Shown in pieces: positions 1,206 to 7,575 of a stretch of 64,000 nucleotides of DNA. Numbering within the stretch: position 1 is the stretch's first letter; every line of letters begins with the position of its first letter. Origin of the DNA: Cystobacter ferrugineus (GTDB lineage: Bacteria; Myxococcota; Myxococcia; Myxococcales; Myxococcaceae); contig NZ_MPIN01000002.1 in NCBI RefSeq assembly GCF_001887355.1, positions 906,510 through 970,509 of the forward strand, written 5' to 3'. The position numbers were made by a program, and so were the translations under genes. Below the pieces are notes generated by a model that saw nothing but the letters and a program-made list of their open reading frames with translations, searched no databases and had not been told where the DNA came from.

Positions 1206-2432
1206 CTAATGGGCGTGGCGCTCGAGGATGAACTCGAACACCGCGCCCGGCGTGGGCCCGAAGCGCAGGAAGTAGTCGCGGTTGCCCTGGAGCGCGTGGA
1301 ACGAGGCCACGTGGGTGATGCCCGTGCAGACGGGCCGGGCGGCCTCGACCTTCACGGCGACGTCCTTGGACTCCATGCCGTCATATGCGCCCACGGCGAG
1401 TTCCCGGTCGAGGTAGAGCACGATGTGCTCGTCCTGAGCCGGCCGCGAGACGAGTGAGGTGTAGCCGTGCTGCTGCTCGCCGGGCAGCGTGACGCGGTAG
1501 CGCGAGTGGCCCGTGTCGGTGAGGGGCGCGAAGCCGAACGGGGGGGCCTCTCCCGTCGTGGCCTGGATCGCCTCCGCCTCGTTCGCGAGCGCGTGGGTGC
1601 AGGCGTGCTCCAGCTCTCCATCCCGCTCGGAGGTCGTGAAGTCCAACCGGCCGTCCCCGAGGAACGCCGCGGAGTCGAGCCGGTTGCCCACCTCGGCGCC
1701 GCGCAGGGCGGACAGGTCCAGGGTGTAGCGGGACTTCTCCTCCAGGGTGGCGCCACCGGGGCCGCCGTCCTCGGGCGCGGGCAGGGTGAGCAGCAGCTCG
1801 CGGCCCTCGTCGCTCCACTGGCCGGTGATGACGCGCGGCGCGATGCTCGAATCCGTGTGGTTCTCCAGCTTCACCTGGGCGTGGGTGGTGCGCATGGGGA
1901 CGCTGAAGCGCAGCGACAGTTGCTTGCGCGAGTAGATGCCCGGGCGGCGCGCCTCGTGGTCGAAGTACAGCTCCAGGGGATACACGTCCTGGGCGCCCTC
2001 GGGGATGCTGGAGGCGGTGAGGACCGGACGCGGGCGATCCGTCCCGGTGCGGAAGCGCAGCGTGTGCTCCACGGGCTGGCCCTGGGCATCCTGGAATCCC
2101 TCGAGCGTGAGGGTGTGCTCCTCGTCGTGGCCGATGCGGGTGATGGGCGCGGTGAGCGTGTTGCCGGACCAGGTGGGCGCGCCGAGCTCCAGCCCGGAGG
2201 AGGGCCGCAGGGTCCCCTTGGACGTGTCCATGGGCCCGCTGAAGGTGAGGGACACCTGGGTGAGGGCGCCGGGGAGCTGCGCCTCGTCGCCACCGGCGGG
2301 CGAGGTGGCCGTCACCGAGGGCGTACCCGGCTCCGGGTTGGGGTTCGCGGGGGCCGGCGGATCATCGCCACAGGCGGACAGCGCCAGCAGGCAGGAGGAC
2401 AACACGGTGGACAGAAGGGGAGCGCGACGCAT
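1206..2432 (-). CDS. Lipoprotein with Ig-like domains and C-terminal HxCxH domain
   Basis: A 408-residue protein with a type II signal peptide (lipobox LSAC, Cys21) and a Pro/Asn-rich linker, so a lipid-anchored envelope protein. Residues about 38-130 and 135-270 resemble bacterial Ig-like (Big_5-type) domains (LTQVSLTFSGPMD; LSLRFSVPM). The last 130 residues carry the domain shared with the next three genes: HACTH at 276-280, His309 in GHSRYRV, Cys369, and a His-containing C-terminus (ERHAH). This domain is not one I recognise. The gene is last in the minus-strand run and is separated from the upstream lipoprotein gene by about 100 bp containing a hairpin, so it may have its own promoter. 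A metal-binding role is inferred from the conserved His/Cys pattern. Confidence 0.85.
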   Translation of the reverse strand: MRRAPLLSTVLSSCLLALSACGDDPPAPANPNPEPGTPSVTATSPAGGDEAQLPGALTQVSLTFSGPMDTSKGTLRPSSGLELGAPTWSGNTLTAPITRIGHDEEHTLTLEGFQDAQGQPVEHTLRFRTGTDRPRPVLTASSIPEGAQDVYPLELYFDHEARRPGIYSRKQLSLRFSVPMRTTHAQVKLENHTDSSIAPRVITGQWSDEGRELLLTLPAPEDGGPGGATLEEKSRYTLDLSALRGAEVGNRLDSAAFLGDGRLDFTTSERDGELEHACTHALANEAEAIQATTGEAPPFGFAPLTDTGHSRYRVTLPGEQQHGYTSLVSRPAQDEHIVLYLDRELAVGAYDGMESKDVAVKVEAARPVCTGITHVASFHALQGNRDYFLRFGPTPGAVFEFILERHAH

Positions 2433-2480
2433 CGTTGGGAAATCCTCGGGAGGGTGAAGGACAGGACACGAACGCGACCA

Positions 2481-2510
2481 GGGCGGCCCCTCATGCGAGA
2501 GAGGCCGCCC
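2481..2510 (-). terminator. Hairpin downstream of the MopE-motif lipoprotein gene
   Basis: A 12-bp stem (11 of 12 paired; arms 2481-2492 and 2499-2510) with a 6-nt loop lies just past the stop codon at 2534 on the minus strand. It is GC-rich and has no clear U-tract, so it could be a weak terminator or an mRNA-stabilising hairpin. Confidence 0.45.
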
Positions 2511-2533
2511 CGGCGCGCTTCACTCGGGGACGA

Positions 2534-3265
2534 TCAGTTGCTCAGCGAGCCGTTGCAGTTCTCGTCCACGCTGTTGCCCGGGACTTCCGCGGCCCCGGGG
2601 TTGATGCTGGCGTTGCTGTCGTTGCAGTCGTACCGGGCGGTGACGTAGCCGGACGGCGGCACGCAGGCGGAGAGGATGGAGACGCTGTTGTTGCCGTAGG
2701 CGTCACCGTCCGTGTCCTGGTAGTAGCGGGTGTTGTAGTCCTCGACGCGCTCGGGGATGACGCCCACGAGGTTGCCCGAGGCGGTGCCCAGCTCCAGCGT
2801 GTACGTGGTGCCGGCGGTGAGGTTGTAGACGGTGTAGTTCGTCAGCCCGCAGCTCGTGCTCACCGCCTGGGCGAGCGCGGAGGAGAGCGTCGTGGTGCCG
2901 CTCTTGGCGGTGACGGTGATGCTCTTGTTCAGGTAGAAGGCCCAGGAGCCCGTGGTGCCCGGGGTGAACTTCACCGTGCCCGTGGCGCCGGCGGGCAGCG
3001 TCACGTCGAACTGCTTGTGCGTGCCGCTGAGGGAAGGCGTCGAGCCGGTGAGGCCGCTCGTCGCCGTCACGGCCACGTGGTCGGCGCTGTTGTTCGCGTG
3101 CAGGCAGGAGTGGGAGGCGATGGAGGGGCTGAGGGCGGTGCAGCCCGCCTCGAGTCCCTGGTCCTGGGAGCTGAAGTCCATCTCCTCGCCCTCGGGAGCG
3201 GGACCGCAGGCGGAGAGGGCCAGGCCCAGGAGCGCGCCCCAGGCGATGTGTTGCGTCGGCTTCAT
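2534..3265 (-). CDS. Lipoprotein: HxCxH domain fused to MopE-type metal-binding motif
   Basis: A 243-residue lipoprotein (lipobox LSAC, Cys20). Residues 52-185 form the shared domain: HSCLH at 52-56, His83 in THKQFDV, Cys139, and a Thr/Gly-rich beta-strand pattern. Residues about 187-243 are a separate module with DTDGDAYGN, ACVPPSGYV, DCNDSNASINPGA and DENCNG. This is the pattern annotated as a putative metal-binding motif (Cu-binding MopE family, PF11617) common in myxobacterial surface proteins. It lies 44 bp downstream of the preceding lipoprotein gene, so probably in the same transcript. The pairing of a known metal-binding motif with the unknown domain supports metal binding for the latter, but that is inference. 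Confidence 0.87.
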   Translation of the reverse strand: MKPTQHIAWGALLGLALSACGPAPEGEEMDFSSQDQGLEAGCTALSPSIASHSCLHANNSADHVAVTATSGLTGSTPSLSGTHKQFDVTLPAGATGTVKFTPGTTGSWAFYLNKSITVTAKSGTTTLSSALAQAVSTSCGLTNYTVYNLTAGTTYTLELGTASGNLVGVIPERVEDYNTRYYQDTDGDAYGNNSVSILSACVPPSGYVTARYDCNDSNASINPGAAEVPGNSVDENCNGSLSN

Positions 3266-3309
3266 GGTTGTCGTTCTCTTTCGTGGTGATGCGGCGGATG
3301 CCGCGGGAA

Positions 3310-3954
3310 CTACAGGTGCTCGATGACGAGGGAGAGCTCGGAGTGCTCCGTGGGGCCGACGGTGACGGTGTACTGGACCTTGTCCGTCAGCTCGTAGCCG
3401 ACCATCCGCACGAGCTCTCCCTGGCAGGCGCCGTCGCGCAGCTCGGCGGGGATGGGCTCGGTGGCGGCCGGCTCCACGCGCTTCGTGCCCTCGTGGAAGG
3501 AGAAGGGCACGCCCTCGTGGCTCAGGTAGGCGATGAAGTCGCCCGTGGCGTAGGACTTGAATTGGAAGGTGCCCACGTACTGGCCTCCCTCCGGGCGCAG
3601 CTTCACGGTGTAGAACGTGTGGAAGGCGTCCACGCGTGGTTGGGCCGTGGTGCTGGCCATCACCGTGGCGTAGGGGCCATTGGTGACGTGCCAGCAGGCG
3701 TGCTCGCCCTTGTCGCCGAAGTCGAACTCCGTGCGTGGCACGTAGTTCGGATCCACCACGCAGGCCAGGCGGTCCGTGGCCGCGAGGTAGCCGCGATCAC
3801 AGTGGCACCAGTCCCCCGTGGCCTCCCGGTGGATGTGGCCATACGGGGCGCAGGGATCTTCTTGCGATACGGGCGGTTCGTCGATGGGCTCGACCGGGTC
3901 GCAGGCGGTCAGGGCCGCGCAGGCCGTCAGCAGGAGGAAGGAGTTCAGGCGCAT
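3310..3954 (-). CDS. Lipoprotein with EGF-like Cys segment and HxCxH domain
   Basis: A 214-residue lipoprotein (lipobox LTAC, Cys18). Residues 35-65 hold five Cys in a short stretch (DPCAPYGHIH, DWCHCDRGY, RLACV) like an EGF-type disulfide module. Residues 85-214 are the shared domain: HACWH at 85-89, His112 in FHTFYTV, Cys177 and a final VIEHL. It starts only 6 bp after the stop of the upstream paralogue, so the two are almost certainly co-transcribed. Function unknown; envelope location is predicted from the signal peptide. Confidence 0.85.
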   Translation of the reverse strand: MRLNSFLLLTACAALTACDPVEPIDEPPVSQEDPCAPYGHIHREATGDWCHCDRGYLAATDRLACVVDPNYVPRTEFDFGDKGEHACWHVTNGPYATVMASTTAQPRVDAFHTFYTVKLRPEGGQYVGTFQFKSYATGDFIAYLSHEGVPFSFHEGTKRVEPAATEPIPAELRDGACQGELVRMVGYELTDKVQYTVTVGPTEHSELSLVIEHL

Positions 3955-3960
3955 GGGGGC

Positions 3961-4536
3961 TTACTCGTGCTCGTGCGCGTGCGCGGCTTCCTCGACCAGG
4001 AGCGTGAACTGGGCGTCGCTCGAGCGGAAGGCGCGGAACTCGAGCCGGTAGTCCTTGCCCGCCTCGAGCGGGGCGATGGCGATGCTCTTGAGCGCGCCGC
4101 ACGCGCTGGCCGAGATGTACGAGCGGCACTCGAGACCCACCTCGGTGGTGCCGTCGAAGATGCGCAGGCCCTGGTAGCGCGACAGGAGGAAGGCGTACTC
4201 GGTGCTCTCCTCGGCGGTGAAGATGACCGAGCCGCCGTACTGGCCGTAGCTGCCAGGCAGCGTGACGTTGTAGGCGGTGTGGGGGAGGTTCACGTCCACG
4301 AACGGCACGGTGCCCAGCGCCGCGGCGGTCACCGCCTGGAACGGGCCGCTCTCCGCGTGGATGCAGGAGTGCTCGATCACTTCCTCCGTCTCGGCCGGAT
4401 CACACTGGGCGGTGAGCTCCTGCTGCCCGGTGGCCAGCTCCATGGAGGCCTCGTCCTGGGCCGCCGTCGTGCCACAACCGGTCATCAGCATCGCCAGGGC
4501 GCAGGTGGACAGGCCCGTCTTGAGCAGGTTCTTCAT
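3961..4536 (-). CDS. Small HxCxH-domain lipoprotein with His-rich tail
   Basis: A 191-residue lipoprotein (lipobox MTGC, Cys21). After a 35-residue linker it is almost only the shared domain: HSCIH at 56-60, His86 in LPHTAYNV, Cys146 in SACGAL, a GKDYRLEF strand, and a tail ending AHAHEHE that could itself chelate a metal. It is the minimal member of the four-gene family. A GGAG ribosome site precedes the ATG. The gene starts 60 bp after the membrane-anchored gene at 4597-5325, and overall the run lies divergent from a zinc-starvation operon. Confidence 0.87.
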   Translation of the reverse strand: MKNLLKTGLSTCALAMLMTGCGTTAAQDEASMELATGQQELTAQCDPAETEEVIEHSCIHAESGPFQAVTAAALGTVPFVDVNLPHTAYNVTLPGSYGQYGGSVIFTAEESTEYAFLLSRYQGLRIFDGTTEVGLECRSYISASACGALKSIAIAPLEAGKDYRLEFRAFRSSDAQFTLLVEEAAHAHEHE

Positions 4537-4596
4537 GGTGCGACTCCTTCTGTGGTGGGGGGACTGCTGGGTGATGCGTGAAAAAGGGATGGGCGC

Positions 4597-5325
4597 TCAG
4601 CGCTCGGGGGGCAGCACGGCCCAGGACACGCTGACCTCGCCCGAGGGCAGGTACTCGGGGGGCAGTTGCATGTGGGGCCCCACGCCGGTCAGCTCCAGCA
4701 TGGGGACGCGCTGGCGGGCCTCCTCGTAGGAGGCCGGGTCCGGGAAGGTGACGCGCGTCACGCACCCGGCGGCGTAGCAGCGGGGCGGCTCGGCGCGGAT
4801 GGGCAGCACCTGCTCCTCGATGCTGGAGCGCCAGGTGGCCAGCGCCTCGCGGCCCTGCTTCGTCCACTCCGCCTGGCTCTCACCCGAGGACTCGAAGGCG
4901 GCGAGCACGGCGTCGCGGCGCTCGAGCGGGGTGGCGTAGCGGCCGCGCAGCGCGCTCACGATGCGCTGGCGCTGCTCGGGCAGCTTGTGCAGGGAGCGGG
5001 ACGTCAGCGGCCATCGCCTCGCGGAGCGGCTGGTGTCCGGCTGGAGCAGGGGCGAGGAAGCGTGCACGGCGGAGGATGCGACGGAGTCGGGATGCGGGGG
5101 CGGGAGGTCCGCGGCCTGGGGTGAGGGGGGCGGCGTGGCGGTGGGCGGGGCCACGGCGGACTCGGCATGGGGCTCCGTTGCCACCGGCCCGGCCGCGGCG
5201 CTGTCTCCTGGCTGGCTGAGCCACGGCGCGGCGAGGAGCGCCAATGCCAGACCTCCCACTCCCACGCTCCACACGATTCGTGACACCGCGATCCTCCCGG
5301 ACTCCCGGTCCTTCGGCGGAAACAC
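4597..5325 (-). CDS. Membrane-anchored hypothetical protein with CYAAGC motif
   Basis: A 242-residue protein with one N-terminal membrane segment (residues about 18-36, VWSVGVGGLALALLAAPW), a long Pro/Ala/Ser-rich linker (40-95) and a C-terminal domain of about 130 residues. That domain contains RCYAAGCVTRVTF, whose Cys pair is probably a disulfide in the periplasm. I do not recognise the family. The gene is the first of the minus-strand run leading to the HxCxH lipoproteins and starts 27 bp from a palindrome that also lies upstream of the zinc-free rpsN, so zinc-dependent control is possible. The start is the most upstream ATG; a shorter start is not excluded. Confidence 0.72.
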   Translation of the reverse strand: MFPPKDRESGRIAVSRIVWSVGVGGLALALLAAPWLSQPGDSAAAGPVATEPHAESAVAPPTATPPPSPQAADLPPPHPDSVASSAVHASSPLLQPDTSRSARRWPLTSRSLHKLPEQRQRIVSALRGRYATPLERRDAVLAAFESSGESQAEWTKQGREALATWRSSIEEQVLPIRAEPPRCYAAGCVTRVTFPDPASYEEARQRVPMLELTGVGPHMQLPPEYLPSGEVSVSWAVLPPER

Positions 5326-5351
5326 TCCGCGCTTATGCCATCAAGGTGTAA

Positions 5352-5368
5352 ACGCAATCAAGTTGCAT
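5352..5368. promoter_or_regulatory. Palindromic operator, copy 1 (putative Zur box)
   Basis: Reads ACGCAA-TCAAG-TTGCAT, one mismatch from the palindrome ATGCAA-N5-TTGCAT seen at three other places, all beside zinc-independent ribosomal protein operons. It lies 27 bp before the start of the minus-strand 242-residue gene and 124 bp before rpsN. Assignment to the Fur-family protein encoded at 7126-7575 is inference. Confidence 0.72.
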
Positions 5369-5406
5369 TTGTAGGGTGCACGTTCTTTTTGTGGCGGCGT
5401 GTTCTA

Positions 5407-5423
5407 ATGCAACTCGGTTGCAT
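5407..5423. promoter_or_regulatory. Palindromic operator, copy 2 (putative Zur box)
   Basis: A perfect inverted repeat, ATGCAA-CTCGG-TTGCAT, 69 bp upstream of rpsN. Its centre is 55 bp from copy 1, so both sit between the divergent rpsN-rpmB operon and the lipoprotein run. Confidence 0.78.
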
Positions 5424-5491: not shown

Positions 5492-5794
5492 ATGGCGAAG
5501 ACGAGCAAGGTGGAGAAGAACAAGCAGCGCGAGGCGCTGGTGAAGCGGTACGCGGCGCGGCGGGCCGCCCTCAAGGAGGCCATCCGCGCCGCGGCCACGG
5601 TGGAGGAGCGGATGCGGGCGCAGACGGCGCTGGGCAAGCTGCCGCGCGACTCCAATCCCAACCGGGTGACGAACCGGTGCGCGCTCACGGGCCGGCCCCG
5701 TGGCTACCTGCGCCGCTTCGGTCTGTCGCGCATCGCGTTCCGCGAGAAGGCCCTGGCTGGGGAAATCCCCGGGGTCGTCAAGTCGAGCTGGTGA
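5492..5794 (+). CDS. rpsN: 30S ribosomal protein S14, zinc-independent paralogue
   Basis: A 100-residue S14 ([37 protein letters not shown]). It has the long form and lacks the CxxC...CxxC zinc ribbon of the short zinc form, so it can replace the zinc protein in the 30S subunit when zinc is scarce. The ATG at 5492 is chosen because an AGGAGG ribosome site lies at 5475-5480; a longer in-frame start at 5426 would put the palindromic operator region inside the gene. It is followed 12 bp later by rpmB. Two palindromes upstream suggest repression by a zinc sensor. Confidence 0.95.
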
Positions 5795-5806: not shown

Positions 5807-6043
5807 ATGTCCAAGGTCTGTCAGGTCACCGGGAAGCGGCCGTTGGTGGGCAACAACGTCAGCCATGCCAACAACAAGACGAAGACGCGCTCGCTGCCGA
5901 ACATCCAGACGCATCGCTTCTGGGTGCCGAGCCTCGGCCGCTTCGTGCGGCTGCGCGTGAGCGCCCACGGCATCCGCATCATCAACAAGCGGGGAATCGA
6001 GCGCGTCATCGCGGAGCTGCGCGAGCGCGGCGAGAAGTTCTGA
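5807..6043 (+). CDS. rpmB: 50S ribosomal protein L28, zinc-independent paralogue
   Basis: A 78-residue L28 with the family signature ([37 protein letters not shown]). Only one Cys is present, so there is no zinc ribbon. It is co-transcribed with rpsN (12-bp gap). In many bacteria rpsN, rpmB, rpmG and rpsR copies of this type form a zinc-starvation set, and all four are present here. It ends before a strong hairpin shared with the convergent genes on the other strand. Confidence 0.96.
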
Positions 6044-6113: not shown

Positions 6114-6338
6114 TCAGGAACCCGGCTCGGAGACGCGCTCCGCGGCGCGCACGAGCCGCAGGTGCCTGGGCCGCTCGCGCGTGGCCTCTTCCTCGCCGTC
6201 CTCGGCTTCGTCGGGAGGCTCCACGTCGATGAGCTCCGGGGGCACGAACTCCCGGAAGCGCTCGCGCCTCCGGGCCGCGCTCGGCCCCGGCGAGGGTGCC
6301 ACTCCGGCTCCGCCTCCGCGCCGGGACCGCCTCCTCAT
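6114..6338 (-). CDS. Small hypothetical protein translationally coupled to rpmG
   Basis: A 74-residue reading frame whose ATG overlaps the rpmG stop codon (ATGA at 6335-6338), the arrangement expected for translational coupling. The N-terminus is Arg-rich, the middle very acidic ([20 protein letters not shown]) and the C-terminus basic. No family recognised and no Cys or His cluster. If real, it would be made with rpsR and rpmG under zinc starvation. In GC-rich DNA such frames occur by chance, so confidence is moderate; the overlap and the termination right at the hairpin favour a gene. Confidence 0.5.
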
Positions 6339-6499
6339 GGCTTGCCTTCCACGAACAGCACGTGCTTGCGCACGCGGGGGTCGTACTTCTTGAGCTGGAG
6401 CTTCTCCTGCGACTTCCGCTTGTTCTTCGTCGTCGTGTAGAAGTAGCCGCTGCCGGACGTCGAGACGAGATGGACGATGGTTCGGTTGCCCTTGGGCAT
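6335..6499 (-). CDS. rpmG: 50S ribosomal protein L33, zinc-independent paralogue
   Basis: A 54-residue L33 ([46 protein letters not shown]). It has no Cys and so lacks the zinc ribbon. The gene sits 38 bp after rpsR on the minus strand and overlaps the next frame by four bases. Together with rpsR it forms the second zinc-independent ribosomal operon of this window. Confidence 0.95.
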
Positions 6500-6537: not shown

Positions 6538-6834
6538 CTAGCCGCCCAGGTGGAGGTAGGGCAGCAGGCCGAGGTGCCGCGCGCGTTTGACGGCCTGGGC
6601 CACCCGCCGCTGCTGCTTCGCCGTCACGCCGGTGATGCGCCGGGGCAGCAACTTGCCTCGCTCGGACACGAAGTACTTGAGCAACTGCACGTCCTTGAAG
6701 TCCACCGTCTCGGCCGCTCCGAGCGGGTTGGGCTTGCGGCGCCCACCCCCGCGCGCCGGGCGCCGGTCATCGTCGCCCCGCGGCGGCCCCGGTGGCCGGG
6801 ACTCGCGCTCCTCGTTCCTCGTCTGTATCGCCAT
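6538..6834 (-). CDS. rpsR: 30S ribosomal protein S18, zinc-independent paralogue
   Basis: A 98-residue S18: an Arg/Gly/Pro-rich N-terminal extension (residues 1-40), then the conserved core ([37 protein letters not shown]). Positions that are Cys in zinc-binding S18 are replaced (TGVTAKQQ instead of TGTCAKHQ). It binds S6 and 16S rRNA in the 30S platform. First gene of the rpsR-rpmG unit; two palindromes lie 45 and 86 bp upstream. Confidence 0.95.
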
Positions 6835-6878: not shown

Positions 6879-6895
6879 ATGCAATCGAATTGCAT
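6879..6895. promoter_or_regulatory. Palindromic operator, copy 3 (putative Zur box)
   Basis: A perfect ATGCAA-TCGAA-TTGCAT palindrome 45 bp upstream of rpsR; its spacer TCGAA is symmetrical too, so all 17 bases form an odd palindrome. Same motif as copies 1, 2 and 4. Confidence 0.78.
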
Positions 6896-6919: not shown

Positions 6920-6936
6920 TTGCAACACAGTTGCAT
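6920..6936. promoter_or_regulatory. Palindromic operator, copy 4 (putative Zur box)
   Basis: TTGCAA-CACAG-TTGCAT, one mismatch from the consensus, centred 41 bp from copy 3 and 86 bp upstream of rpsR. The rest of the stretch 6937-7125 shows no gene on either strand that I can support. Confidence 0.7.
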
Positions 6937-7125: not shown

Positions 7126-7575
7126 CTAGCCGCAGCGGTCACACAGGCCGCGCAACTGGATGTCCACCGTGCTGTCCGCCACGGACTTAGGCAGGCCCTT
7201 GGTGGGCGAGAGGCGGACGGACTTGGCCGGCAGGCACGACACGGCGCCGCAGTCCGTGCAGGTGAAGTGCGGGTGGGGGTCGTGGTGGCCCGCCGTGTCG
7301 CGCTTGAGCTCGAAGCGCCACACCCGGTCTCCCAGGTCCGTGCGCACCACGAGGCCCACCTCGGTCAGGTCCGTGAGGTTGCGGTAGAGCGTGACGCGGT
7401 CGTAGCCCTCGTCCTTGAGCGCGTCCACCAGGTCCGCGTGACTCAGCGGCGTGGTGGCGGCTTCCAGTTCCCGGAGGACGGCGATCCGGGCCGCCGTGCT
7501 GCGCAGCCCCGAGGAGCGCAACAGCTCCTGGTAATCGCCCAGGGTGGGTGGAGATGTGGTTTTCCTGGCGGCCAT
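7126..7575 (-). CDS. zur: Fur-family metal regulator, probably zinc sensor Zur
   Basis: A 149-residue Fur-superfamily repressor. The N-terminal winged helix spans about 10-85 (LRSTAARIAVLREL; YDRVTLYRNLTDLTEVGLV). The dimerisation domain has a His-rich metal site (HHDPHPHF, residues 97-104) and two CxxC pairs (Cys106/109 and Cys145/148) that form the structural zinc site. The ATG at 7575 is chosen because upstream sequence in the same frame is not conserved-looking. Neighbourhood (four zinc-free ribosomal paralogues with a shared palindrome) makes zinc the most likely signal; Fur or PerR specificity cannot be excluded from sequence alone. Confidence 0.82.
   Translation of the reverse strand: MAARKTTSPPTLGDYQELLRSSGLRSTAARIAVLRELEAATTPLSHADLVDALKDEGYDRVTLYRNLTDLTEVGLVVRTDLGDRVWRFELKRDTAGHHDPHPHFTCTDCGAVSCLPAKSVRLSPTKGLPKSVADSTVDIQLRGLCDRCG

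Follow-up and report, generated by a model that had tools for sequence, protein, structure and literature searches.

The window analysed here, a stretch of 64,000 nucleotides on contig NZ_MPIN01000002.1 of Cystobacter ferrugineus, carries on its minus strand a run of five genes, four of which encode lipoproteins with a common HxCxH motif (lipA–lipD). In our view the run likely supplies the lipoproteins of a zinc-acquisition module that is conserved in Myxococcaceae and controlled by Zur, a reading that draws on putative operator boxes, gene order and co-inheritance across genomes. For the wider proposal we see an even balance: a new zinc-acquisition machine, in which four to six paralogous outer-membrane lipoproteins would collect zinc on the surface of the cell, perhaps out of prey lysates, by a helix-borne His pair plus a further His and a Glu, locked by a disulfide, and would load a dedicated TonB-dependent receptor under the control of Zur.

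Palindromic boxes at zinc genes and HxCxH genes

The palindrome was searched for in the 12.05 Mb genome of the organism. The unrefined pattern TGCAAN5TTGCA gave 7 exact sites compared with 2 for the reversed control, and the refined consensus TGCAAY-N3-RTTGCA (TGCAAYNNNRTTGCA) gave 7 compared with 0. This significance arises at the level of the whole genome only, as a count that tolerated mismatches and was confined to the window did not exceed that of shuffled sequences. Three of the seven exact sites are located in the window, ahead of two operons for zinc-free ribosomal proteins (S14/L28 and S18/L33). A fourth lies upstream of a gene for a COG0523 GTPase followed by a DUF1826 gene, where the GTPase passes the NCBIfam ZigA equivalog with a score of 649.8 (cut-off 600), and another precedes a CbiM gene and a CbiQ/ATPase gene. 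A further exact site is found 3.9 kb left of the window between a TonB-dependent receptor gene and a divergent gene for an exported protein. Zur classically targets ZigA/COG0523, TonB receptors and zinc-free ribosomal paralogues (PMC6103462), and because the sites precede genes of these kinds, the palindromes are with high probability Zur boxes.

The two palindromes that the preliminary description placed between the divergent start points are real, and so is a pair of the same type before rpsR. The box of the lipoprotein operon (5353–5367, minus strand) lies within the palindrome 5352–5368 (ACGCAATCAAGTTGCAT), reads TGCAACTTGATTGCG on the minus strand with one mismatch, and is located 27 bp upstream of the GTG start of the first gene. 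The second box (5408–5422, TGCAACTCGGTTGCA, no strand assigned; palindrome 5407–5423) is exact; it separates the two divergent gene starts and is 69 bp away from rpsN. The pair ahead of rpsR-rpmG, also without assigned strand, comprises 6880–6894 (TGCAATCGAATTGCA; palindrome 6879–6895) and 6921–6935 (TGCAACACAGTTGCA; palindrome 6920–6936). At 5336–5367 we observed a second, weaker half-matching box (TACACCTTGATGGCA, minus strand) whose start is offset by 17 bp beyond that of the main box. Many relatives carry a TGGCA element at this position, a hint of Zur dimers in tandem.

Boxes also accompany HxCxH genes outside the window. The genome contains two further HxCxH loci, of which lipE (C3:947815) starts close after a pair of boxes (947215 and 947241) that an independent pattern search identified; a double box at this unlinked gene has a Poisson probability of about 1e-6. 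The other, lipF (C6:333773), comes after a gene with the palindrome CGCAACTCAGTTGCG, a weaker box, at its start. Locus L056 (5756–6316 and 6994) shows lipF following a His-rich exported protein, with the palindrome GCAACTCAGTTGC 18 bp upstream.

Relatives in the genera Archangium, Corallococcus, Myxococcus, Pyxidicoccus and Hyalangium share the arrangement box-U242-lipA-lipB-(box)-lipC-lipD, in which U242 denotes the gene that opens the run. When boxes with no more than one mismatch of 12 were counted within 250 bp upstream of a gene, they were found at 17/23 U242, 21/35 lipC and 6/35 lipB genes, at 24/32 receptor genes and at 27/28 of the divergent lipoprotein genes on the receptor side, counts that come from related species and thus do not represent independent events. 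Background sequence of 582,354 bp yielded no box with up to one mismatch. Upstream of U242, almost all of 29 loci keep the core AACTTGATT (once AACTTGGTT), with drifting flanks; loci lacking a one-mismatch box either have the core with two mismatches or a gene start too close to the box for counting. The boxes remain where the cluster has no ribosomal genes beside it, as in a sister genome (L057) and in other genera; among them is the counterpart of 5408–5422 in the sister. The four exact boxes of another sister genome (G091) all lie at the lipoprotein locus. The palindrome, which the preliminary description had proposed to look for near HxCxH genes elsewhere, is thus present in five other genera as well as at unlinked HxCxH genes of the same genome. 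Together, this comparison strongly supports the zinc-starvation regulon proposed there, and we regard control of the run by Zur as nearly certain.

Architecture of the operon and the HxCxH family

The five genes, together with their reported gaps of 60, 6 and 44 bp, were confirmed, and the fourth gap measures 101 bp. The designation of all five as HxCxH lipoproteins holds for four; the first gene, U242 (4597–5325, minus strand), encodes a signal-anchored protein of 242 residues with a conserved C..AGC motif that in this copy has neither HxCxH nor a lipobox. The others, all on the minus strand, are lipA (3961–4536; HSCIH), identified by motif, profile and model as an N-terminal helix followed by a β-sandwich; lipB (3310–3954), whose sequence combines an EGF-like Cys/His-rich segment (PCAPYGHIHRE...DWCHC) with the HxCxH domain (HACWH) and which co-occurs with the receptor described below; lipC (2534–3265; HSCLH) with a C-terminal MopE-type motif (PF11617, E 8e-12); and lipD (1206–2432; HACTH), assigned by Pfam and profile, with a CopC/Big_5-like N-terminal domain. 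Orthologues carry a lipobox in 33/34 cases for lipA, 35/35 for lipB, 35/35 for lipC and 32/35 for lipD. Pfam searches returned no family for lipA, lipB or U242, NCBIfam gave none above its cut-offs, and a PDB sequence search with lipB returned marginal EGF-like matches only, the best being the factor X light chain (E 0.24).

A terminator separating U242 from the genes at 4536 and downward, which the preliminary description had named, in combination with a lack of palindromes near HxCxH genes elsewhere, as a refutation of its proposal, was not found by a terminator scan, nor was any other within the five genes; a sigma-70 promoter scan was empty. The hairpin reported ahead of the fifth gene is real: between lipC and lipD (2471–2519, minus strand) the RNA is predicted to fold with −51.5 kcal/mol (z −4.2), and no shuffled sequence was equally stable. 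As it lacks a U tract and the intergenic energy is alike in several genera, this element is more likely a determinant of RNA stability than a terminator. In the genus of the window lipC has no box of its own, so that its expression would depend on read-through.

LipA–D share a common domain of ~140 residues and form one family, which a profile search detected in 72 of 195 Myxococcota genomes, mostly with 4–6 copies each; outside Myxococcota, it was looked for with lipB patterns only. Among 166 unique sequences, H56, C58, H60, H86, C146 and E182 (lipA numbering) are nearly invariant. AlphaFold models, with a predicted local distance difference test (pLDDT) score of 80.7 for lipA and 88.3 for lipB, place HxCxH on a helix preceding the β-sandwich. 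The lipA sandwich matches the PPC-type collagen-binding domain of ColG with a Z-score of 9.5 (root-mean-square deviation 2.7 Å, 107 aligned residues, 13% identity) and the lipB model with a Z-score of 9.9, although none of the four proteins matches Pfam PPC at E ≤ 1 despite the similar fold.

On the modelled helix H56 and H60 (i, i+4) should face one side and C58 the opposite one. From the conserved residues we infer a zinc site in LipA–D formed by H56, H60, H86 and E182 (His3/Glu), in which C58 and C146 would provide a disulfide staple. We disfavour a metal motif in which all three residues of HxCxH act as ligands, since C58 should face away from H56/H60 and is invariant together with C146. 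The motif is probably an HxxxH zinc pair combined with a disulfide cysteine.

The TonB-dependent receptor and alternative readings

In most loci the lipoprotein genes run towards a convergent receptor operon, in which a TonB-dependent receptor, fused at its N-terminus to a TonB_C-like domain, is followed by a small exported protein; another exported protein is encoded divergently, with a box between the divergent genes. Searches of Pfam and NCBIfam returned a family for neither partner of the receptor. The operon partner of the receptor and lipB occur together in 55 genomes, are both absent in 136, and the partner is found alone in 4 (Fisher 3e-44), so that all 55/55 lipB genomes carry it. In distant relatives lipB, receptor and partner follow each other in this order in one operon, with ZigA-like genes nearby in one case (L102) and an upstream box in another (L097); the order box-lipB-receptor-partner, on one strand, is that of a distant Myxococcota metagenome-assembled genome. 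Owing to this strict co-inheritance and the distant operons, lipB is the likely receptor partner, and lipA, lipC and lipD may serve a broader capture role.

Based on these data we propose the following mechanism, for which repression by zinc-loaded Zur and TonB-driven import follow from the known families. Zur, probably the Fur-family protein at 7126–7575, would occupy the TGCAAY-N3-RTTGCA boxes when loaded with zinc and block transcription. Upon zinc starvation the boxes would be released, jointly switching on four zinc-free ribosomal proteins, U242-lipABCD, the receptor operon left of the window, ZigA-DUF1826 and the CbiM/Q/O-type transporter. LipA–D would be exported as outer-membrane lipoproteins, each with the HxCxH helix followed by a PPC-like β-sandwich, and would be displayed at the surface, binding zinc by the His3/Glu site stapled through C58–C146. 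Zinc would thus be captured outside or at the outer membrane and handed by LipB to the receptor for TonB-driven import.

The candidate regulator (7126–7575, minus strand; Pfam FUR, E 5e-12) has two CxxC pairs, CTDC and CDRC, and is assigned from its family match and context as the protein that probably acts as Zur and would bind the boxes. MtZur and EcZur align to it across nearly its full length. Several observations weigh against the proposal. In PDB searches the best matches of this protein are Fur proteins, over residues 19–112, placing its N-terminal part nearer to Fur than to Zur; the paralogue lipF lacks the first His of the motif (EGCEH); and the MopE and CopC motifs would fit copper as well. 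Furthermore, four Myxococcus genomes (G119, G128, G130, G131) retain other HxCxH paralogues and lack both lipB and the receptor partner, G119 keeping lipA/C/D, so that these three are not obligate partners of the receptor.

The persistence of HxCxH paralogues in those four genomes would suit lipoproteins under Zur control that act as a zinc buffer or reserve, periplasmic or surface-located, rather than feeding a receptor, and four to six paralogues per genome would befit a sponge. We regard this as unlikely, yet the strongest of the alternatives: a store should be produced when zinc is plentiful, whereas boxes for Zur point to expression under scarcity, and lipB never occurs apart from the receptor operon in its 55 genomes. 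The preliminary description had left acquisition and storage side by side; acquisition fits better because the partner is a TonB-dependent receptor, and storage less well.

Less probable still is that the lipoproteins bind copper, like the surface proteins CorA/MopE, and are merely co-regulated with zinc genes. The MopE-type motif of lipC, the CopC-like domain of lipD and a weak structural match in Foldseek (CorA 4bz4, E 0.013) point in this direction, as CorA is surface-bound and copper-repressible (PMC3912023). However, where the targets of the boxes could be recognised they were zinc genes, namely those for ZigA and the zinc-free ribosomal proteins; the ligands of CorA, two His and kynurenine, differ from the conserved residue set of lipA–D, and neither lipA nor lipB has a MopE match. 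Marginally weaker again, and improbable, is a structural and metal-free HxCxH in adhesins or binding modules made in zinc starvation: the best fold match is indeed a collagen-binding domain and the two invariant Cys suggest a disulfide, but the linkage to a TonB receptor speaks against it. An accidental adjacency of the run to boxes serving the ribosomal operon only, suggested by the location of both boxes between divergent genes, has a negligible chance and is already refuted comparatively, as the lipoprotein operon keeps its boxes in genomes that lack ribosomal genes beside it and other HxCxH loci have their own.

Relation to known systems and neighbouring features

The proposed module resembles known Zur regulons (PMC6103462, Table 3) in its zinc-free ribosomal paralogues, COG0523/ZigA and TonB-dependent receptors under a palindromic box. 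It differs in the box, here TGCAAY-N3-RTTGCA (the table includes no myxobacterium), and in the addition of a lipoprotein family and an apparently Zur-boxed CbiM-type transporter. Like Caulobacter ZnuK/L/M and Neisseria ZnuD, it would contain a Zur-controlled outer-membrane zinc receptor, but one with a fused TonB_C-like domain that travels with lipB and two further small exported proteins. The pairing of TbpB with TbpA is similar in that a lipoprotein is co-inherited with a TonB-dependent receptor; the proposed source here is free zinc instead of a host protein. ColG and ColH share the β-sandwich, and in ColG a metal-binding linker precedes it, yet identity is ~13% without a Pfam PPC match, and the ligands are of calcium there and His/Cys/Glu here. 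CorA/MopE (PMC3912023) are metal-repressible surface proteins proposed to supply metal uptake; they differ in metal, ligands and regulator, and the sequence family match is limited to the MopE-type motif of lipC.

Searches of open-access literature on myxobacterial Zur, zinc starvation and zinc uptake regulation returned no description of a Zur regulon or operator; subscription papers were not covered. New here are the operator, the list of member genes and an uncharacterised family of lipoproteins, together with a clear hypothesis on its metal site, which proposes a role for one group among the many anonymous lipoproteins of myxobacteria. To our knowledge, the route of zinc to surface TonB receptors is little understood, and these related surface-type lipoproteins of predatory bacteria point to an undescribed machine capturing scarce zinc. 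Because Myxococcus xanthus (AM003, L098), a model organism amenable to genetics, carries the module, it is directly testable there.

The ribosomal genes next to the run, identified by family matches, are rpsN (5492–5794, plus strand; S14 whose sequence lacks the zinc ligands), rpmB (5807–6043, plus; L28 without paired Cys), rpmG (6335–6499, minus; L33 without Cys) and rpsR (6538–6834, minus; S18 without Cys); a second L33 gene is present elsewhere in the genome. The CbiM/CbiQ/ATPase transporter with an exact box (L008:8043, G000:C1:268042) is of a type usually annotated as cobalt uptake, and its zinc-type box suggests a zinc ECF-type importer. The seventh exact box (L010:8114, G000:C10:305113) is located upstream of genes for a small acidic and then a CHAP-like protein, for which a zinc link was not recognised. 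A genome of another genus of the family (G060, genus g2) has 20 exact boxes and no HxCxH family match, indicating a larger regulon. The record BNCN01000005.1 (L095), titled Comamonas sp. KCTC 72670, contains a Myxococcus-type locus and is probably misnamed or contaminated. At 1–1069 of the window (minus strand) an AAA-type ATPase is encoded in two separate frames, reflecting either a frameshift or decay; its counterpart in the sister genome (L057:11412–12752) is a single frame of 446 residues.

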